This document shows, piece after piece, positions 28,646-37,441 of a stretch of DNA of 38,861 bases (the stretch's first letter is position 1; each line of letters starts with the position of its first letter). Source of the stretch: Nitriliruptoraceae bacterium (GTDB lineage: Bacteria > Actinomycetota > Nitriliruptoria > Nitriliruptorales > Nitriliruptoraceae); NCBI GenBank assembly GCA_007136095.1, contig SLHP01000151.1:1-38861 (forward strand), read 5' to 3'. The notes beneath the pieces are model-generated. The model saw only the letters and a list, made by a program, of their open reading frames with translations, was not told the DNA's origin and ran no database searches. Both the position numbers and the translations under genes were made by a program.

Positions 28646-29875
28646 TCACCGTGCGCCCACCAGGTCGTGGTCGTCGGGGCAGGCGCCCCGTCCCGTGGCG
28701 ATGCGGTCACTGCGGACCGGGTCGTCGCCACGAACCGCAGCGGCGATCCGCAGCGCAGCTCGGCGTTGGCCGACCAGGTTGCCTGCGGTCGGACCGAGCC
28801 GCAGTGCCGCTCCGAAACCGCTGAGGTGGACGCGGGTTCCCGGCCAGGACAGGTCCGCCGCCAGGTCCGGCAGCCCGTGGGCGATCGTGGTGGGGAAGGA
28901 GGTCACGAGGTCCTGGCACAGCGGATCCAGCCCGACGTCGATGCGACCCCCCGTGGCGCACCACATCGCATCGGCCAGGACGGCGCGATCGTCGGTGCAG
29001 CGGACACGGACGCGATGCCCGATGGCATCGCATCCCACCACCTCGACACGTTCGCGCAGGTCGATGACGCCCGCCTCGATGCAGCGGTCAAGATCCCGCC
29101 GGACCCGGGCGGGGACACTGCCGCCACCGCGGGCGGTGTCGATCGTGCGGCGGCGGATGAACGCGTCCGGCTCCTGTTCGAACGGGCGGCGCTTGCGGGG
29201 TCCGAGCCAGCTCGGATCGGTGTCGAAGCGACGGACACGGAGACGCCGGCGGGCCAGCATGGTCACGCGGGCCCCGCGGCGGGCCGCGCCGATGGCCAGG
29301 TGTGCGGCCGACAGACCACCACCGACGATCACGACGTGTCCCCCGACCGGCGTGTTCGCGACGTTGGCCCGTTCGGTGTCCGCGAACACCTCGGTGCCGG
29401 CTGCGTCTCGCAGCCCGTCGGGCACCAGGGAACGCCGGGCGTTGGTCGCCAGGACGACCCGGTCCGGCTGTCGGGAGGAGCCGTCGGTCAGCCGCACCTC
29501 CGCTCGACCGTCTATGTGGATCCGGAGCCCGGTGACACCGGTCGGGGTCACGCGGTCGGTGAGGCCGCGCCGCTCGATCATCTCGTCGACGAAGGCATCG
29601 AACAGACCGGTCGTCGGCAGCTGGGTCCCGCCGCTGGCGATCAACCCCTTCCCGGCGGCGAACTCGAGCATCCCGAACGGGTCAGGATGGGGGTGGTGGA
29701 CCGCGGGGGAGCGCAGGTTCGGGATGTCCTGCGCGGCGAAGCGTCGATGCCAGGCGGCCATCCACGTCCCGGACGGATCCACGACCTCGACGTCGGCATC
29801 GACACGCTGGCACGTCAGGGTGGTCGCACAGGCCAGGCCTGCGGGGCCGGCGCCGACGATCAGGATGCTGGTCAT
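28646..29875 (-). CDS. FAD/NAD(P)-binding oxidoreductase, third gene of metal operon
   Basis: A flavoprotein of 409 residues. The FAD motif GAGPAGLACA (about 7-16) starts the protein and a second dinucleotide motif VIVGGGLSAAHLAIGAARRG (about 169-188) follows. The segment NLRSPAVHHPHPDPFGML near 53-70 is rich in His and Pro and recalls SidA/IucD-type or thioredoxin-reductase-like flavoproteins; reductase or N-hydroxylase activity is possible. There are no membrane segments. Its ATG overlaps the stop of the FeoB-like gene (ATGA), indicating translational coupling. It converges with exonuclease III. Its presence next to a FeoB-like permease suggests reductive handling of a metal or metallophore, but no such activity is shown. 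Confidence 0.85.
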   Translation of the reverse strand: MTSILIVGAGPAGLACATTLTCQRVDADVEVVDPSGTWMAAWHRRFAAQDIPNLRSPAVHHPHPDPFGMLEFAAGKGLIASGGTQLPTTGLFDAFVDEMIERRGLTDRVTPTGVTGLRIHIDGRAEVRLTDGSSRQPDRVVLATNARRSLVPDGLRDAAGTEVFADTERANVANTPVGGHVVIVGGGLSAAHLAIGAARRGARVTMLARRRLRVRRFDTDPSWLGPRKRRPFEQEPDAFIRRRTIDTARGGGSVPARVRRDLDRCIEAGVIDLRERVEVVGCDAIGHRVRVRCTDDRAVLADAMWCATGGRIDVGLDPLCQDLVTSFPTTIAHGLPDLAADLSWPGTRVHLSGFGAALRLGPTAGNLVGQRRAALRIAAAVRGDDPVRSDRIATGRGACPDDHDLVGAR

Positions 29876-31551
29876 GCCAGGCCCCGCAGGAGCAGTGCTC
29901 CGCCCCAACTGACCACGGCGGCGAGCAACAGTGCACCGACCGCCTGGCGCCAGAGCAACCGTGCCGCGATGCGTCGACCACGCTCCCGGGCGATCGTCAG
30001 GGCGGTGACCAGGCACGGCACCAACGCCCCGGCCAGGAGCAGCGCCGCCAGGAGTTGTGGACCGTCGAGTATCTCCACCGTTCCCGGCTCGGCGAGCAGC
30101 AGCAGCCCGTCCTTGCGGATCGATGCGAGCACGACGGGTAGTGCGACCTCCGTGGGCAACCGCAGGAGGCCCATCATCGGCGCCAGCGGTCGCGCCAGGC
30201 GCTCGAGCAGGCCGGTCGCCGCCAGGAGTGACGCGGTCACGGTGATGGCGAGGAAGATCGGCAACGCCTTGATCGTGACGTGGCGCAGGGTGGCGCCGGC
30301 CTCGCGGCGGATGTCGGTCCACTGCGGCCTCATCAGGAAGGCGCGTCCGCGCAACAGGTGCAGGTCGAGCGAAACCGGGTCGGTGCCCTCTGCCCGGGCG
30401 ATGAGTCGCGCGTGGACCAGCGCCACGCCGAGCAGCACGCTCAGGTAGGGGACGACCAACGCCGGTCGCTGGGCGGCCGCCAGCACGCCGAGGGTCGCGC
30501 CCAGCTGGTAGGAACAGGCGCTACCGAACGCGATCGCGCCGATCGTCGCGTCCCGGGTACAACCCGAACACGACCGGGTCGAGATGACCGCCGGCACGTT
30601 GCAGCCGTGGCCGGCGACGATCCGGACGAGGTCCCGACCAGTCAGACCGAACGGCCGGACCAGGGGATGCACCGCCGTGGTGAGCCGGTCGAGCAGGCCG
30701 CTGGCCTTGAGCACGCCGAGGAGCAGCGCGAGCACCACGACGACGGGCAGGGCCCAGACCAGCAGGAGCGGTCCCATGGTGATCAGGCCATAGTCGCCGG
30801 CGATGACGTCCGCGAGCGGCCACGGCAGGCGGGTCGCTGCCTCGGCGATGGGTTCCAGTCCGGCTTCGACGAACGGTTCGATGGCGTCCGCAACCGTGAT
30901 GGCAAGCCACACGGAGGCGATCGCCGGAGCCAACAGGATGGTCAGCCCGGCGATGGGCCCGACCCATCGGTGCTCGAGGATCGTCGGTGGGGGCTCGATC
31001 CGCCAGCCGACCCGTGCCAGCACCGGACCCCGGGTGAACTCTCCGGGATCCGCCAGGGCGGCCCGCAGCTCAGCGACTCCCGCGGCACCGTCACGGGCGT
31101 CGAGCGCGATGAACGGCACGCCCGTCGCTGCGGCCACGCCGGCCAGCGCTCGGCGGGCGGCGACGGTGTCCTGCACGCGGTCCCAGTTGGTCACCGCGAC
31201 CACACCCCGCCGACCGGCGACCACGGGGAGCAGCTCGGCGAGCTCGTCATCGAGGTGGGTTGCCCGCAGGACCAGCAGCACGTCCGCGTCCTGGTCCAGG
31301 GCCCGCAGCGCCGTCGCGGTGGTGGCCGCATCGATCCGGTGCACGATGCCGGGCGTGTCGACGATGTCGCGTGCACCGTCGCTGTAGGTCTCGATCGCCA
31401 ACGTCGAACCCGCGACGTTCTGGGCGCGCGACCGCGTACCCGTCAGCGCGCCGGGGAGGGTCGACTTGCCCGACGACTCGGGGCCGACGAGGACCAGCGG
31501 CCTCGTGCCGGTTGCTGGTGGTGGGCTCGGTGGGGTGCTCGATCGCCTCAT
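29872..31551 (-). CDS. FeoB-like GTPase-permease
   Basis: A short FeoB-related protein of 559 residues (classical FeoB is about 600-800). The N-terminal G domain has G1 GPESSGKST (23-31), G3 DTPG (65-68) and a G5-like LDARDG (150-155); the G4 position reads NWDR instead of NxxD, so guanine specificity may be altered. Residues about 195-559 form the membrane part, with the gate motif GHGCNVPAV (314-322) followed by an unusual CxxC (CSGC, 328-331) and a further Cys at 346. ATG 31551 shares its A with the upstream stop (TGATG). No FeoA or FeoC is encoded nearby. It probably imports a divalent cation; the upstream box suggests zinc-linked control rather than iron. Confidence 0.8.
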   Translation of the reverse strand: MRRSSTPPSPPPATGTRPLVLVGPESSGKSTLPGALTGTRSRAQNVAGSTLAIETYSDGARDIVDTPGIVHRIDAATTATALRALDQDADVLLVLRATHLDDELAELLPVVAGRRGVVAVTNWDRVQDTVAARRALAGVAAATGVPFIALDARDGAAGVAELRAALADPGEFTRGPVLARVGWRIEPPPTILEHRWVGPIAGLTILLAPAIASVWLAITVADAIEPFVEAGLEPIAEAATRLPWPLADVIAGDYGLITMGPLLLVWALPVVVVLALLLGVLKASGLLDRLTTAVHPLVRPFGLTGRDLVRIVAGHGCNVPAVISTRSCSGCTRDATIGAIAFGSACSYQLGATLGVLAAAQRPALVVPYLSVLLGVALVHARLIARAEGTDPVSLDLHLLRGRAFLMRPQWTDIRREAGATLRHVTIKALPIFLAITVTASLLAATGLLERLARPLAPMMGLLRLPTEVALPVVLASIRKDGLLLLAEPGTVEILDGPQLLAALLLAGALVPCLVTALTIARERGRRIAARLLWRQAVGALLLAAVVSWGGALLLRGLA

Positions 31552-32678
31552 CAACACAGACAGTCGTCGTTGCAGCACGACAGGTCGTCGAGGAAGAACC
31601 GGTGCTCCCGCAGTTCCCCGAGGGGCTCGGTGTCGACCTCCAGTCGCTCACCGATGTCGCGCGCGACGATGGCGAAGCGCTGGCGAAACTTGTAGATGAA
31701 GCAGAAGATCGCCTCGCGGTGGGCGAGGGCTGGACCGGCCAGGTAGAGGCCGGGGACCACGGTGGAGCCATCGTTCTCCTCGAAGAGTTCGACCCGGCCG
31801 TGCTCGTCGAACTTGAAGCGATCGCGGATGATGGAGAGCGAGCCCTCGAAACCGATGGCCAGCAGTGGAGGGCCGTCCGTCGGGTGGGCCTCGCCGTCGG
31901 AGGTCGTCACGAACCAGCCGTCGCCGGCTGCGGTCACGGTGTCGACGGACACTCCGCCGATGAGTTCCAGCCGATCCGTGTCGTCGGCGGCTCGGAGCCG
32001 TCCCTGCGTGTACGGCGACAGGATGCGTGACGGGTCGGCGTCGATGACGTCCCAGGGTGCGTCCGGGTCGATGACGGTGACGCGCTTCCCCCGGGCGATC
32101 AGGTTGGCGGCCGCATCGATCCCGGACTCGTACCCGCCGATGATCACGGCGTCGTCGCCCGGATGCTCGCCCCAGGAGGTGATGTTCACCGTCGGGATGC
32201 CGTGTCCGGCCCCCGGGAAACCGGTGTGTCGCGGGTACTGCGCTTCCCCGGCGGCCCACACCACGTTGCGGGCGATCAAGTCGCCACCGTCGGCCACCTC
32301 GACGGTGAGGTGGCCGTCGTCACGTGGCACGACGTCGGTGACCTCGATGCCCGTGCGCACCTCGATCTCGTCCAGGCGGGCGACCATGTCGAGGTAGGCC
32401 GCGTACTGCGCACCGGTGGGGTGTTCTTCGGTCAGCGACAGGGCGGGCGAGGTATCGGGTGTGATGGCGTTGAGATCGACCAGCCCGAACTGGTTCCCAG
32501 TGAACGACGGGGTGATGAGCCGCATGTCGGGCGGCCACCGCAGGAACGAGGCGCCGACGCCGTGGCGGTCGACGACGGTTGCTGCGACGCCGAGACGCCG
32601 GAGCGTCGACGCGACGCCGAGTCCGGCAGGTCCTGCGCCGATGATCACGACATCGTGGATGGCTGCTGATGATGGCAC
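31551..32678 (-). CDS. YpdA/CzcO-like flavoprotein with C-terminal Cys cluster
   Basis: An FAD/NAD(P)-dependent oxidoreductase of 375 residues resembling YpdA and CzcO. It has GAGPAGLGVA (14-23) for FAD, GASFLRWP, a second motif VIIGGYESGIDAAANLI (about 178-194) for NAD(P), and a C-terminal YLAGPALAH segment. The last eight residues are CCNDDCLC (CCxxxCxC), which could bind metal or form a redox disulphide. It leads the three-gene operon; its stop overlaps the FeoB-like ATG. A 7-1-7 inverted repeat overlaps the predicted promoter at 32708-32736. No secretion signal is present. Confidence 0.86.
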   Translation of the reverse strand: MPSSAAIHDVVIIGAGPAGLGVASTLRRLGVAATVVDRHGVGASFLRWPPDMRLITPSFTGNQFGLVDLNAITPDTSPALSLTEEHPTGAQYAAYLDMVARLDEIEVRTGIEVTDVVPRDDGHLTVEVADGGDLIARNVVWAAGEAQYPRHTGFPGAGHGIPTVNITSWGEHPGDDAVIIGGYESGIDAAANLIARGKRVTVIDPDAPWDVIDADPSRILSPYTQGRLRAADDTDRLELIGGVSVDTVTAAGDGWFVTTSDGEAHPTDGPPLLAIGFEGSLSIIRDRFKFDEHGRVELFEENDGSTVVPGLYLAGPALAHREAIFCFIYKFRQRFAIVARDIGERLEVDTEPLGELREHRFFLDDLSCCNDDCLC

Positions 32679-32707
32679 GGAGCACTGATCCTGATCGGTG
32701 GCTAGAG

Positions 32708-32736
32708 AGCGTAACCGTTCTAGGAACAGTTCTCAA
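32708..32736 (-). promoter_or_regulatory. predicted promoter of flavoprotein-FeoB operon
   Basis: On the minus strand, TTGAGA (plus positions 32731-32736) and TACGCT (32708-32713) are separated by exactly 17 bases. The Zur-like box at 32721-32735 covers the -35 and half of the spacer, so bound repressor would block polymerase. Confidence 0.55.
32721..32735. promoter_or_regulatory. candidate Zur/Fur-family box, flavoprotein operon
   Basis: TAGGAAC-A-GTTCTCA is a 7-1-7 interrupted palindrome (five inner pairs match well), as expected for Fur-family operators, here with the form GGAACnGTTCYCA. The right half and following AATAC closely match the box at 34527-34541 in the znuA/znuC intergenic region. 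It lies 43 bases upstream of the flavoprotein start. Confidence 0.6.
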
Positions 32737-32862: not shown

Positions 32863-33162
32863 TCAGTGCTCGTCGTAGTGGTCGCCGTGTTCGGCGTGGC
32901 GGTGACCGTCGTGGATGTAGTCGACGTGGTCGTCGTGCTGCAGTGTGTCGTGACCGCAGTCGGGACCGTGCGCATGATCGTGCGGCGTGGCAACGGCATG
33001 GACACCAGCCAGGTCGTGCTCGTCGACGTGGTCGTCGTGCTGGTGGTGGGCGTGACCATCATGCAGGTAGTCGACGTGGCCATCGTGCTCCACCGCCGGG
33101 TGACCGCAGTCGGGCCCGTGGACGTGGGTGTGGTCGTCGTGGACGGTGCAGGTCGAACTCAT
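32863..33162 (-). CDS. His-rich two-repeat small protein, probable zinc-binding
   Basis: A 99-residue protein with 27 His and two Cys in the repeats, soluble and without a signal peptide. Residues 15-49 and 65-99 are two 35-residue repeats in perfect register (HGPDCGH, then HxxHVDYxHDGHxH, then DEH), joined by a short linker. Such His-rich proteins occur in other actinomycetes and are sometimes named 'zinc transporter permease', but there is no membrane segment here. Zinc or nickel buffering is the simplest reading. ATG 33162 lies about 30 bases from the predicted transcript start. The gene follows arsR on the same strand, with an ArsR-type operator in its promoter. Confidence 0.8.
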   Translation of the reverse strand: MSSTCTVHDDHTHVHGPDCGHPAVEHDGHVDYLHDGHAHHQHDDHVDEHDLAGVHAVATPHDHAHGPDCGHDTLQHDDHVDYIHDGHRHAEHGDHYDEH

Positions 33163-33334: not shown

Positions 33335-33652
33335 TCAGTCGACCTCGCTGGCGTGGACGATGGCATCCTCGACGATATGGGCGACGTGGTTGTCGACGAG
33401 GAAGTAGCTCACGGAACGGCCCTTGCGGTGGCGCTCCACGAGGCGGGCGGCTCGCAGGGTGGCCAGATGCTCGGAGACGCGCGGCTGGGCAAGCTCCAGC
33501 GCGTCCACGAGTTCGTGGACGGCGCGCTCCCCGCCGGCGAGTTCGCGGACGATCGCGACCCGCGTCGGGTTCGACAGCGCACGGAACATCTCCGTCGTGC
33601 GCTCGAGTGCGGCCGGGTCGGCTTCCGTGATCGACACCTGGGGTCCTCGCAT
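33335..33652 (-). CDS. ArsR/SmtB-family zinc-sensing repressor
   Basis: A 105-residue winged-helix repressor. The core (about 20-85) has SNPTRVAIVRELAGGERAVHELVDAL (adjoining segments), the recognition helix AQPRVSEHLATLRAARLV and the wing RHRKGRSVSYFL. The C-terminal alpha-5 helix carries D87, H89, H100 and E103, in the spacing DxH-x10-HxxE, identical in pattern to the SmtB zinc site. No alpha-3 CxC site is seen. Such proteins release DNA when zinc is high. It lies 48 bases downstream of znuC on the same strand and 172 bases upstream of the His-rich gene, whose promoter holds a palindrome. Confidence 0.88.
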   Translation of the reverse strand: MRGPQVSITEADPAALERTTEMFRALSNPTRVAIVRELAGGERAVHELVDALELAQPRVSEHLATLRAARLVERHRKGRSVSYFLVDNHVAHIVEDAIVHASEVD

Positions 33653-33699: not shown

Positions 33700-34455
33700 T
33701 CAGGACAAGCGGTGCTGATGGGGGTCATCGAGCACGACGCTGCCGTCGTCGAGCACGTGGAGATGTCCGCCGTAGGCGACCGCGAGGTTCTCGGCGGTCA
33801 GGACCTCCCCTGGTGGACCCGCCGCCACGATCTCCGTGGCGATCAGGATGACCTGGTCGGCCAGCCGAGCCGTCCCGACATCGTGCGTCGTCAGCGCCAC
33901 CGCGGTCCCCCGGTCGCGCTCGGAGGTCATCACCGAGGTGATCGTCTCCTGCGTGATCAGGTCCAGCCCCGTGATCGGTTCGTCGAGGAGCAACACATCC
34001 GCCTGCTGGGCCAGGCCCTGCGCCACGTAGGTCCGTTGACGCTGTCCGCCGGAGAGTTCGTGCAGTTGGCGGTTGGTGAGATCACCGAGTTGCATCCGTT
34101 CGACCGCATCATCGATCGCCCGACGGTCCTGCCGGGACAGCCGCCGGTGGAGTCCCGTGTGTGCGTAGGTTCCCATGCGGACGGTCTCGATCACGGTGAG
34201 CGGCAGGGCCTCGTTCGCGACCGTCGACTGCAGGACGTGGGCAACGCGCTGGCGTCCCTGCTTCGGTGGTCGGCCGTGCACCAGGACCCGACCCTTCGTC
34301 GGGCTCACCAGCCCAGAGATCGTCGACAGCAGGGTGGACTTCCCTGAGCCGTTCGGGCCGATGATGGCCACGACACTGCCCGTCCGGATGTCCACGGTCG
34401 CGTCCCGCACGGCCTCGATGGGCCCGTAGGAGACGTCGAGGTGGTCGATGTGCAC
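33700..34455 (-). CDS. znuC: zinc ABC transporter ATP-binding protein ZnuC
   Basis: Cytoplasmic ATPase of the zinc-uptake ABC system, 251 residues. It has Walker A GPNGSGKST (about 37-45), the Q-loop, the signature LSGGQRQRT (about 134-142), Walker B VLLLDEPITG and a switch His in THDVGTA. The frame is open further upstream, but that part would run through the operator; GTG 34455 follows GAGGGAGCGGG and begins just before the conserved VHIDHLDVSYG. It is divergent from znuA and znuB, which supply the solute-binding protein and permease, and shares their intergenic box. arsR follows after 48 bases, probably in the same transcript. Confidence 0.92.
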   Translation of the reverse strand: MHIDHLDVSYGPIEAVRDATVDIRTGSVVAIIGPNGSGKSTLLSTISGLVSPTKGRVLVHGRPPKQGRQRVAHVLQSTVANEALPLTVIETVRMGTYAHTGLHRRLSRQDRRAIDDAVERMQLGDLTNRQLHELSGGQRQRTYVAQGLAQQADVLLLDEPITGLDLITQETITSVMTSERDRGTAVALTTHDVGTARLADQVILIATEIVAAGPPGEVLTAENLAVAYGGHLHVLDDGSVVLDDPHQHRLS

Positions 34456-34526
34456 GGCAACGTCCCGCTCCCTCGGCGCGCCCTCGGGCGCCTGGCGCGC
34501 GCTACGTGGCGTTCTGGTTGGCGGTT

Positions 34527-34541
34527 CAGGAACGGTTCCCA
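34527..34541. promoter_or_regulatory. candidate Zur box between znuC and znuA
   Basis: CAGGAAC-G-GTTCCCA is a 7-1-7 interrupted palindrome with a perfect core GGAAC-G-GTTCC. With its following ATTAC it aligns to the box at 32721-32735. It lies in the 198-base interval between the divergent znuC and znuA starts and could control both. Confidence 0.6.
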
Positions 34542-34653
34542 TTACTCTCCCCGGTGCGGAGTGCAGGACAGTAGCGGCTGATGTGAGAGACCGACGGCTG
34601 CTGAAGAAGACAACGAGTCGCCACCCGTTCATCCACGATCGAAGAGTTCACCG

Positions 34654-35901
34654 ATGTCCTTGTTCAGACAGAAGCATGCCACCACGTCCCTGCCGATGCG
34701 CGCCGTCGCGCTCATCGCGGTCCTCGGTTTCGCCCTTGCCGCCTGCGGTGAAGCTGAGATCGAACCAGAAGAGGCGGCCGAGGAGACCGACGAGGTCGAG
34801 GAAGCCGACGAGGTCGAGGAAGCCGAGCCGGAGGGTGACGGACCCCATGTGGTCGTCACGACCAGCATCCTGGGCGACATCGTCGCAACGCTCGTCGGTG
34901 ACGACGGCCGTGTGGATGTGATCATGCCTCCGGGTGCGGACCCCCACGGGTTCCAGCCATCGGCGTCCGACGCTGCCATGATGCGTGAAGCGGACCTGGT
35001 GGTCGCCAATGGGCTCGACCTCGAGGAGAACCTCGTCTCGGCACTCGACGCCGCGGAAGAAGAAGGCGTCCGGGTCTTCACCCTCGCCGACAAACTCGAC
35101 CCGATCGACTTCGACTGGGACGGTCCGCACAGCCATGGTGACGATGACCATGGGTACGACGACGACGATCATGGGCATAACGACGATGGTCATGGGCATG
35201 ATGACGATGGTCATGGGCACGACGATGATGGTCATGGGCATGACGATGATGGTCATGGGCATGATGACGATGACCACGGGCACGACGATGATGGTCATGG
35301 GCACGACGACGATGACCACGGGCACGACGACCACGATGACCATGACCACGGTCCCGAGGACCCGCACGTCTGGTTCGACCCGGTCCGGATGGCCGAGGGT
35401 GTCCAGATGCTCGCAGCTGAACTCGCTGATGTCGACACCCGCCTCGACGCCACCGAGTGGGAGAGTCGCGGAGAGGACTACGCCGCGGAACTGATGGAAC
35501 TCGACGAGGAGATCGCGGAGATCCTGTCCGCCGTGCCGGCTGGGAACCGACAGCTCGTCACCAACCACGACGCCCTGGGCTACCTTGCCGCCCGCTACGA
35601 GTTCGAGGTGTTGGCAACGGTGATCCCGGGTTCATCCACGCAGGCTGAGGCTGACGCAGCCGGCTTCGCGGCGCTGATCGAGACGGTCGAGGACGCCGGC
35701 GTGACCGCGGTCTTCGCGGAGAACACCGATTCCACGACGCTTGCGGACCAGTTGGCCAGCGAGGTGATCGGTCGCAGCGACCTCGAGGTCGAGGTCGTCC
35801 GGATCTACACCGATGCCCTCGGCGAGGACGGCAGTGGCGCCGAGACCTACCCGGGCCTGCTGCGGACCACGTCGACGCTGATCGCTGACGCACTCAGTTG
35901 A
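34654..35901 (+). CDS. znuA: zinc ABC transporter substrate-binding lipoprotein ZnuA
   Basis: Cluster A-I solute-binding lipoprotein that captures zinc for the ZnuB/ZnuC importer, 415 residues. A signal peptide (about 10-30) ends in the lipobox LAAC with Cys31. An acidic Glu-rich linker (about 32-60) precedes the first lobe, with the ligand His of PHGFQPS near 97. A long His/Asp-rich loop (about 160-232) holds nine 7-residue units ending in HGH, encoded by 21-bp tandem repeats. The second lobe includes DPHVWFDP, NHDALGY and AENTDS, completing the metal site. The stop overlaps the TTG of znuB. The length exceeds typical ZnuA because of the loop. Confidence 0.94.
   Translation: MSLFRQKHATTSLPMRAVALIAVLGFALAACGEAEIEPEEAAEETDEVEEADEVEEAEPEGDGPHVVVTTSILGDIVATLVGDDGRVDVIMPPGADPHGFQPSASDAAMMREADLVVANGLDLEENLVSALDAAEEEGVRVFTLADKLDPIDFDWDGPHSHGDDDHGYDDDDHGHNDDGHGHDDDGHGHDDDGHGHDDDGHGHDDDDHGHDDDGHGHDDDDHGHDDHDDHDHGPEDPHVWFDPVRMAEGVQMLAAELADVDTRLDATEWESRGEDYAAELMELDEEIAEILSAVPAGNRQLVTNHDALGYLAARYEFEVLATVIPGSSTQAEADAAGFAALIETVEDAGVTAVFAENTDSTTLADQLASEVIGRSDLEVEVVRIYTDALGEDGSGAETYPGLLRTTSTLIADALS
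35149..35337 (+). repeat. 21-bp tandem repeats encoding the His/Asp loop of ZnuA
   Basis: Nine units begin at 35149 and recur exactly every 21 bases, encoding HG(H/Y)(D/N)DD(G/D). Mixed CAT/CAC and GAT/GAC codons show that the copies have diverged silently. Such arrays vary in number by slippage and could tune loop length. Confidence 0.9.
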
Positions 35902-36770
35902 TCTCGACCCTGATCGAGCTGGTCACCGAACCGTTCGCCTTCATGTTCATGCGCAACGCGCTCATGGCGGGGCTGCTGACGGTGGTGGCCAGCTCGCTCA
36001 TCGGGACCTGGGTCGTGATGCGTGGGATGGCCTTCATGGGCGATGCGCTCGCCCATGGGGTCCTCCCGGGCATCGCGATCGCGTTCATCCTCGGCGGGTC
36101 GTTGATGCTCGGTGGTGCGCTCAGCGCTGCGGTCATGATCGCCGGGGTCTCGCTGGCCAGCGCGCGCAGCCGGCTCGGCGAGGACACCGCGATCGGCCTG
36201 TTGTTCGTCGGGATGTTGGCGGCTGGTGTCGCCATCATCTCCAAACGCGGGGCTTACGCCGGGGACCTGACGACGATCCTGTTCGGCGACCCGATCGGGG
36301 TCACGCGGTCTGACCTTCGCACCACGGCGATCGCCGCCGCCGTGACGATCATCCTCACGATCGTGTTCTACCGACCTTTCCTGGCGTTGTCCTTCAGTCG
36401 CGACAAGGCGCAGGTCCTCGGACTCCACCCGCAGCTGGCGCACCTGGCGATGCTCGGCCTGGTCGCGCTGGTGGTGGTCACCTCGTTCCGGACCGTCGGA
36501 ACGTTGCTGGTTTTCGCCTTCATCGTGGCGCCGCCTGCCACCGCAGCCCTGGTCTCGCGCCGGGTCCCGATCATGATGGGCGTGTCGATGGTGATCGGCG
36601 CACTCGGCGTCTTCATCGGGCTGCTGGTCAGTTTCCACGCAGGGACGGCGACGGCTCCGACCATCGCCGGCCTCACCGTGGTGGCCTTCTTCCTGATCCT
36701 CGCGATCAAGGAGGCCCGGTCGGGCGCGCAGCGCTACCGCCGCGGCCGCTCACTGCTCACCGCGGGTTGA
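35898..36770 (+). CDS. znuB: zinc ABC transporter permease ZnuB
   Basis: Integral membrane permease of the zinc importer, 290 residues, ABC-3 family. About eight to nine hydrophobic segments are visible, with the family segment MRGMAFMGDALAHGVLPGIAI near residues 42-62 (two adjoining segments), the coupling-helix region VLGLHPQLAHL near 172-182 and GTLLVFAFIVAPPATAAL near 203-220. The C-terminus is short and basic. TTG 35898 overlaps the znuA stop (TTGA), giving translational coupling. It converges with the Zur-like gene, leaving 44 bases. Confidence 0.93.
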   Translation: MISTLIELVTEPFAFMFMRNALMAGLLTVVASSLIGTWVVMRGMAFMGDALAHGVLPGIAIAFILGGSLMLGGALSAAVMIAGVSLASARSRLGEDTAIGLLFVGMLAAGVAIISKRGAYAGDLTTILFGDPIGVTRSDLRTTAIAAAVTIILTIVFYRPFLALSFSRDKAQVLGLHPQLAHLAMLGLVALVVVTSFRTVGTLLVFAFIVAPPATAALVSRRVPIMMGVSMVIGALGVFIGLLVSFHAGTATAPTIAGLTVVAFFLILAIKEARSGAQRYRRGRSLLTAG

Positions 36771-36814: not shown

Positions 36815-37279
36815 TCAGGCGCAGATCTCGCACGTGCCGACGAGTTCGAACCGGTGCGAATCGACGATGAAGTTCTGCTGGGCGAGGGCCTCGTCCGCGG
36901 CACTGGCCAGCGCCTTCTCGATCGTCGGCGGGAGCACCACGTCGTCCAGGCGGCCGCAGGCGGTGCACACCAGGTGGTGGTGGTGTTCTGAGAGTTCCTC
37001 GGTCAGTTCGTACCGGGCGACGTCGTCGGTGGATGCCAGGCGGTGCACCGCGCCGCACTGTTCGAGGATGGCGAGGTTGCGGTACAGCGAACTCTGCGAC
37101 TGGGTCGCGCCCCGGTCCATCAGCTCCGGGATCGTGACCGGCCGCTCGGCAGCCTGGAGGAGCTCCACGAGTTGACGCCGCCCCAGCGTGTAGCGCTGGC
37201 GCGTACGACGCAGCTGCTCGTCGACGGTCGCGTGGATGTCGGTTGCGTGGGTGTCGGTTGCGTGGGTGTCGGTAGCCAT
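36815..37279 (-). CDS. zur: Fur-family regulator, probably Zur
   Basis: A 154-residue winged-helix regulator of the Fur family, most likely zinc-sensing given its neighbours. It has the DNA-binding part (about 20-85, with TQSQSSLYRNLAIL), HHHHLVCTACG near 104-114 (metal site 1 and first CxxC) and CEIC at the C-terminus, the second CxxC of the structural zinc. The N-terminus carries three 5-residue repeats ATDTH/ATDTH/ATDIH, encoded by 15-bp repeats. ATG 37279 is used; the open frame continues upstream to 37321 without clear bias. TACCCT lies 7 bases from the ATG and could be a -10 of a near-leaderless transcript. It converges with znuB. Confidence 0.9.
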   Translation of the reverse strand: MATDTHATDTHATDIHATVDEQLRRTRQRYTLGRRQLVELLQAAERPVTIPELMDRGATQSQSSLYRNLAILEQCGAVHRLASTDDVARYELTEELSEHHHHLVCTACGRLDDVVLPPTIEKALASAADEALAQQNFIVDSHRFELVGTCEICA

Positions 37280-37441
37280 GCCCCCAGGGTAGGGCACGTT
37301 CTCGGAATGGTGCGACATCACGCGCTGGCGGATCTCGTGGTGCGCGGGATCGAGCGGCGACGCCCGCCGGCTAGACTCCTACCGTCGCAGACCCGGTCCG
37401 GGTGACGACTTCCTCCGCTCCCTTGACGCCTCGGAGCCCTT

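Follow-up and report, generated by a model that had tools for sequence, protein, structure and literature searches.

The 38,861-nucleotide stretch of contig SLHP01000151.1 from a Nitriliruptoraceae bacterium, hereafter the window, contains three consecutive genes. Gene 1 encodes an NAD(P)H- and flavin adenine dinucleotide (FAD)-binding flavoprotein with a cysteine-rich C-terminal tail, gene 2 encodes a permease resembling FeoB, and gene 3 encodes a second flavoprotein. The pair of genes 1 and 2 is probably a zinc-starvation module repressed by the zinc regulator Zur, that is, an importer of zinc or a substitute metal with a flavoprotein handling thiols or metal. Predicted Zur control of the pair has strong support, from zinc-type boxes conserved across three lineages and from zinc-starvation genes in its neighbourhood, in agreement with the induction in zinc shortage suggested in a preliminary description of the window. 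The source organism is a soda-lake bacterium with a 3.06-Mb genome, 92% complete, and the analysis is limited by its reliance on metagenome-assembled genomes and database annotation.

The operator of gene 1 matches the kind shared with the promoter of the zinc ATP-binding cassette (ABC) genes in the window's family. A 15-bp palindrome, TAGGAACAGTTCTCA on the plus strand and TGAGAACTGTTCCTA on the minus strand, is situated 43 bases upstream of gene 1, and a near copy, CAGGAACGGTTCCCA, is seen in the divergent zinc ABC promoter, the znuA/znuC gap where a closely similar box had been noted before. The window contains two such sites, with 0.03 expected from shuffles. Their position weight matrix (PWM) scores are 23.1 for the gene 1 box and 22.2 for the znu box, the next best site scoring 9.9. 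The inverted repeat had also been reported to overlap the −35 region; on the minus strand the box indeed overlaps TTGAGA, a candidate −35 hexamer, but a strict promoter scan gave no match.

The weight matrix was trained on the zinc ABC promoter boxes alone and applied to fifteen gene 1 promoters, those of the window and of its relatives' loci. A box is found at all fifteen, with scores between 17.8 and 25.7, and the score observed is equalled by 0 of 400 Markov shuffles of each promoter; a score of 12 bits is exceeded by 2.5% of random 220-bp background segments, genuine boxes included. The pattern TRRGAAYNRTTCYYA was refined on both promoter sets, the matrix test being independent of that refinement. 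With zero mismatches, it has a single site in the whole 3.06-Mb genome, upstream of gene 1. When one mismatch is allowed, the zinc ABC box is matched as well, as are three sites overlapping open reading frames. No zinc markers were found in this genome near these three sites or near the sites of the core pattern, and the three were rejected as further zinc-box genes.

The pair is preceded by zinc boxes of different sequence in two other lineages. In the Bacillota, TCGTAATNATTACGA, which we take to be the B. subtilis-type Zur motif, is present in nine of nine loci with 0–2 mismatches, 14–82 bases before the presumed first gene of the operon. A primer used in an electrophoretic mobility shift assay of B. 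anthracis Zur agrees with this motif (PMC6336718). The E. coli motif TRWNAYRWTATAWYRTNWCA, taken from PMC6103462, is found in all five gammaproteobacterial loci, with 0–2 mismatches on the better strand and 14–70 bases before gene 1. The results for these two lineages were matched by 0–2 of 500 shuffles.

In two relatives of the window (L043 and L045), one box is common to gene 1 and a divergent gene encoding a class I fructose-bisphosphate aldolase, the latter heading an operon in which the FeoB-like gene is the last. Class I fructose-bisphosphate aldolases are metal-free, and this one is a candidate replacement for the zinc-dependent class II aldolase; hence the shared box fits zinc sparing. 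An own box at the FeoB-like gene, when it is split from gene 1, was considered and rejected, since none is present at the gene and the shared divergent box precedes the aldolase instead. In both relatives, the gene separating the aldolase from the FeoB-like gene encodes a 96-aa protein (L043 6475–6765, L045 11649–11939), the L043 copy having no Pfam match.

A genome-wide scan yielded 53 FeoB-like loci and then, after a drop from E 3e-68 to 2e-27, 27 canonical FeoB loci that served as controls. The former are distributed over about ten phyla: the Cyanobacteriota, Planctomycetota, Chloroflexota, Acidobacteriota, Verrucomicrobiota, Bacillota, Pseudomonadota and Actinomycetota among the bacteria, Nitrosopumilus and haloarchaea among the archaea. 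One further locus, in a Gracilibacteria bin, is possibly misbinned cyanobacterial DNA. Gene 1 occurs near the FeoB-like gene in 51 of the 53 loci, mostly within 200 bp, and near none of the 27 controls. Of the two exceptions, one is on a contig of 7.8 kb and the other is a match with 0.9 kb of sequence left beyond it. Such a survey had been proposed at the outset, and its outcome bears out the co-occurrence of gene 1 and the FeoB-like gene. Outside the window's own family, zinc-starvation markers flank 39 of 49 loci, compared with none of the 27 controls (Fisher 1e-12), the controls being mostly Pseudomonadota, unmatched by phylum, and the marker queries being derived largely from pair-bearing loci. 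For loci longer than 13 kb, the numbers are 33 of 37 and 0 of 17, respectively.

The commonest neighbour of gene 1 is COG0523. On Klebsiella and Pantoea plasmids, the former including hypervirulence plasmids and those of the pLVPK type, the pair is found with FolE2, DksA, carbonic anhydrase, CysS, COG0523/ZigA, HisI or QueD-like genes and Fur-family regulators. In Paenibacillus, it is accompanied by COG0523 and by S14 and L33 paralogues without the paired CxxC zinc-ribbon motifs (C-minus), in Haloferax and Haloarcula by S14 and COG0523, and in Acaryochloris by ZigA and several Fur-type genes. The FeoB-like family is rare in the Actinomycetota: it occurs in 11 of 397 sampled genomes, of which eight belong to the window's family. 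The other three have gene 1 too, accompanied by COG0523, zinc ABC genes or gene 3.

Several loci differ in detail. Klebsiella pK54798 (L023 7989–9117) is among the Klebsiella virulence plasmids on which gene 1 is broken into two reading frames, and other plasmids have an intact copy (L027). The pair is divergent in Nitrosopumilus MED-G94 (L060), a marine archaeon of an ammonia-oxidising genus, where it lies near a znuB homologue and the tail is shortened to CxC. The azt zinc cluster of Paracoccus sp. MA (L021 11815–12696) contains a second pair of COG0523 and FAD-oxidoreductase genes, the flavoprotein being of another length class. Flavoproteins seem to be a repeated partner of COG0523 GTPases.

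Gene 2 resembles FeoB in having an N-terminal G domain, two Gate repeats (Pfam, 1.6e-21) and a GCNVPA core, of which GCNV is invariant in the family, and its best structural matches are NFeoB domains. In the predicted structure (predicted local distance difference test score, pLDDT, 89), the G domain spans residues 19–167 and membrane helices start at 197, almost directly after it, hence gene 2 lacks FeoB's cytosolic helical GDI domain. FeoB_C and GDI (FeoB_Cyto) are absent from all five family members scanned and present in E. coli FeoB. FeoB_N scores 26.0 bits in the window protein, just below the cut-off of 27, which is passed by four relatives. The earlier description as a FeoB-like permease needs correcting in these details: two Gate domains lie behind a G domain, FeoB_C is lacking, and FeoB_N is sub-threshold in Pfam. 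Canonical FeoB iron uptake was rejected as the family label and kept as a rival for the ion only: the TIGR00437 equivalog score is 90.3 bits with a cut-off of 315.65, the domains named above are missing, and a branch with support 100 separates the family from canonical FeoB, albeit in a quick tree with long branches. The permease differs from known FeoB proteins in its clade, its Zur context and its partner. A FeoB relative in Methanocalculus chunghsingensis (L100 9001–10635) is remote from both groups (end branch 2.25) and adjoins a second, canonical feoA-feoB pair.

Motifs G1 and G3 are intact and the P-loop is present, whereas G4 is TxxD instead of NKxD in 51 of 54 members. Five membrane cysteines are conserved in 53–54 of the 54 aligned members. 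The CxxC (328/331), seen in nearly all family members and replaced by SxxC in two from the Acidobacteriota, is absent from E. coli FeoB and from all 27 canonical controls. Neither this CxxC nor the four-cysteine tail of gene 1 figured in the preliminary description.

Gene 1 has one invariant cysteine, at position 326 (47 of 47 homologues). The four cysteines of the C-terminal tail CCx(2-4)CxC are conserved in 43, 45, 46 and 46 of these homologues, respectively; variants SC..CxC or TC..CxC are found in two Bacillaceae, and some proteins of the Verrucomicrobiota run beyond the tail. The model has a pLDDT of 92.5 overall and 43 in the tail, so the tail is probably flexible. The nearest solved structure is 3d1c from S. 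aureus (template modelling, TM, score 0.88–0.92), a structural-genomics entry described as a flavin-containing putative monooxygenase. It belongs to the same family over the full length, with 32% identity, a profile E-value of 1.8e-108 over residues 6–375 and the tails aligned, that of 3d1c being SCCEVSCTC. To our knowledge, no function is known for 3d1c, and we know the gene 1 family only from that entry. The next structures are YpdA/Bdr, the bacillithiol disulfide reductase, and thioredoxin reductases. YpdA/Bdr shares the fold (TM 0.71–0.82 in most chains), but the identity is about 20–24%, its alignment stops short of the cysteine tail, and gene 1 scores 69.3 bits with the TIGR04018 (YpdA/Bdr) equivalog, the cut-off being 339.9. 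In mammalian thioredoxin reductase and MerA, cysteine tails carry thiols or bound metal between partner and flavin, and by analogy the gene 1 tail could work in a similar way.

These features suggest the following scheme. As zinc drops, the Zur-like Fur protein encoded next to the zinc ABC genes would leave the operator, and the operon would be transcribed along with the znu/azt importer. Gene 2, a thiol-rich, cut-down FeoB relative whose small G domain would gate the two-repeat membrane core, would most likely import Zn2+ or a stand-in metal, the CxxC and three further membrane cysteines providing soft ligands along the path. The flexible four-cysteine tail of gene 1 most likely would accept the metal at the inner face, be kept reduced by the flavin, or both, so that the reduced thiols would stay free to hand it over, COG0523 chaperones being one possible recipient; gene 1 may accept the metal through its thiols or release it by reduction. 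Gene 3 would be an accessory flavoprotein in a minority of lineages. What the sequences show is the gene structure, the family relations, the conserved operators, the zinc-starvation context and the tight pairing, whereas the ion, its direction, the redox role, the hand-over steps and the coupling of a reductase to zinc transport are what we infer. A bolder version is tentative: the pair would represent a novel class of zinc importers, widespread in the zinc-starvation response of Bacteria and Archaea, in which transport through a FeoB-derived Zn2+ channel, gated by its G domain, is coupled to an NAD(P)H flavoprotein, and zinc moves along the four-cysteine tail of the latter, maintained by redox chemistry.

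A number of observations weigh against a zinc importer with a dedicated flavoprotein. Ten of the 49 loci have no zinc marker in the sequence available around them. Gene 1 occurs without a FeoB-like gene in Acaryochloris pREC1 (beside ZigA), in Paracoccus (beside COG0523) and in Enterococcus, hence it need not be a transporter subunit, and its role is probably in general zinc handling. The tail is lost or altered in a few members (Nitrosopumilus, with CxC only, and one Verrucomicrobia assembly). Cysteines 317, 346 and 513 of gene 2 seem, by eye, to be aligned with those of canonical FeoB, and the use of GTP is uncertain because of the TxxD at G4. Finally, Zur control does not by itself specify the ion, as Zur regulons also include enzymes for zinc sparing and genes with other roles.

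The strongest rival, which we consider rather unlikely, is the import of another metal under zinc starvation: the permease would carry Fe2+ (or Co2+ or Mn2+) for iron- or cobalt-dependent substitutes of zinc enzymes, and the flavoprotein would reduce Fe3+ or chelates. The FeoB fold with its GCNVPA core agrees with this, and no FeoB_C-bearing FeoB was found in the 92%-complete genome of the source organism. Some Zur-regulated substitutes, such as Cam, may use iron, as argued by Haas 2009 (PMC2770081), and cobalt can replace zinc in zinc-starved Cupriavidus (PMC11340326). On the other hand, the operators are of the Zur type and common to znu in the window's family, gene 2 lacks GDI and FeoB_C, and the added CxxC suits a softer ion. 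FeoA is beside none of the 53 FeoB-like genes, although this is weak alone, as the E. coli FeoA query finds it at only two of the 27 controls.

It is improbable that gene 1 (and gene 3) reduces or oxidises a small disulfide or dithiol zinc ligand, in the manner of TrxB and AhpF acting on thiolutin or GliT acting on gliotoxin, with the permease taking up or releasing the ligand or its zinc complex. No recurring ligand-making genes were seen across the annotated loci, and a FeoB-type core is a metal-ion path. What speaks for such a thiol metallophore is that the nearest folds are disulfide reductases (YpdA/Bdr and thioredoxin reductase), and that a link between dithiol zinc ligands and FAD disulfide reductases exists in B. 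subtilis (PMC12288471). Under gliotoxin, E. faecalis shows an unexplained pyridine nucleotide-disulphide oxidoreductase, H7C719, alongside S14, L33 and CobW proteins, a response linked to zinc depletion (PMC10533825). E. faecalis carries gene 1 homologues, and one on a plasmid (L148 8908–10041) may be related to H7C719. This homologue ends in CSGCEVRCNC, with no zinc marker in 19 kb; on Enterococcus plasmids, gene 1 occurs alone and without zinc markers.

Least probable of all is that the flavoproteins stand in for zinc enzymes, as other Zur-regulated paralogues do, and are merely co-operonic with the permease: many neighbours are zinc-free substitutes and some loci have gene 1 alone, but the almost constant pairing with one permease family at short distance is against it, and a four-cysteine tail would be odd in a zinc-free substitute.

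Gene 3 is an optional companion of the presumably Zur-repressed pair. It is present in eight of the 49 loci outside the window's family (haloarchaea and cyanobacteria), so the trio was rejected as a fixed unit, and the proposal of a three-gene system is retained for genes 1 and 2 only. Relatives of gene 3 are found in zinc clusters without the pair in Picosynechococcus (HemB, FolE), Leptolyngbya (ZnuABC, COG0523, HemB) and Metabacillus (COG0523, S14). A match in S. aureus (27%, beside Na+/H+ antiporter genes) was set aside as probably outside the family.

In the open-access literature searched (FeoB with zinc starvation, pLVPK, COG0523, czcO), the pair was not found to be described as a system, and within that literature the system may still be called undescribed, as it was at the outset. 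The zinc island of Klebsiella pLVPK, treated along with COG0523-linked Zur clusters by Haas 2009 (PMC2770081), was predicted there to be Zur-regulated. The pair is present on pLVPK-type plasmids, but the permease and the flavoprotein are unnamed in the main text of that paper, which has no mention of FeoB, COG0370, TrkA or COG2072. In C. glutamicum, Zur represses cg0795, an oxidoreductase of unexplained function, beside the COG0523 gene cg0794 (PMC2823685). This is likewise a Zur-controlled oxidoreductase next to a COG0523 GTPase, but no FeoB-like gene is named there.

Zinc limitation is a main means by which hosts and rival microbes restrain bacteria, and few import routes are known. That a conserved, Zur-boxed permease and flavoprotein occur in so many phyla, Klebsiella hypervirulence plasmids and haloarchaea included, suggests a route for the uptake or trafficking of the metal, the parts of which standard annotation hides under iron ("ferrous iron transporter B") or as "nucleoside recognition domain" or "oxidoreductase". 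The pair offers a testable role for the 3d1c flavoprotein family and may be relevant to two unexplained oxidoreductases, the one controlled by Zur in C. glutamicum and the one seen on zinc depletion in E. faecalis. If the new importer class were true, ZnuABC and ZIP would be joined by a further family, and flavin chemistry would gain a part in zinc trafficking.

Table 1. Features of the locus, with positions in the window unless another locus is named.
Feature	Position	Strand	Remarks
Gene 1	31551–32678	−	NAD(P)H/FAD flavoprotein, Pyr_redox_3, YpdA/TrxR-like fold; invariant Cys326, C-terminal tail CCNDDCLC
Gene 2	29872–31551	−	FeoB-like permease: G domain, two Gate repeats; without GDI (FeoB_Cyto) and FeoB_C; extra CxxC (328, 331)
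Gene 3	28646–29875	−	Second FAD/NAD(P)-binding flavoprotein, Pyr_redox_2/NAD_binding_9
Zur-type operator TAGGAACAGTTCTCA (7-1-7)	32721–32735		Upstream of gene 1; znu-trained PWM and genome pattern scan
Zur-type operator CAGGAACGGTTCCCA	34527–34541		Divergent promoter region of zinc ABC genes (znuA/znuC gap)
Zinc ABC ATPase, AztA-like (ZnuC role)	33700–34500	−	34500 is a position within a longer open reading frame, 33700–34632; exact start tentative
AztC/ZnuA-like zinc-binding protein, His-Asp-rich loop	34654–35901	+	
AztB/ZnuB-like zinc ABC permease	35898–36770	+	
Fur-family regulator, presumed Zur	36815–37321	−	Adjoins zinc ABC genes; syntenic with znu and trio in relatives
Class I fructose-bisphosphate aldolase	L043 5594–6475; L045 11939–13012		Divergent from gene 1

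The three genes are all intact and, as described initially, overlap stop to start, by TGATG and ATGA. Independent relatives, including one single-contig genome (G016), have the trio and the zinc ABC genes in a syntenic cluster, which is therefore no binning artefact. The Fur-family gene of this cluster is likely Zur, consistent with the Zur-like regulator noted nearby. A zinc ABC operon is present, as the earlier znu names implied, but the best-matching NCBIfam models are AztABC, all below their cut-offs (AztA 210.2/220, AztB 276.4/280, AztC 270.3/350 bits).

One His-rich gene and one ArsR gene are situated between the trio and znu. Zur control of both was rejected, as the relatives of these genes have no box (best candidates with 5–7 mismatches). 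The former encodes a His/Asp-rich protein of 98 aa (32863–33159, minus strand) with two similar HGPDCGH..EHDGHVDYLHDGH units and is preceded by the ArsR/SmtB gene (33335–33652, minus strand); a ACATCGCGATGT palindrome is seen upstream of it. The His/Asp-rich gene is kept beside the trio in the Nitriliruptoraceae, without a Zur box, and its product is perhaps a buffer for zinc excess.

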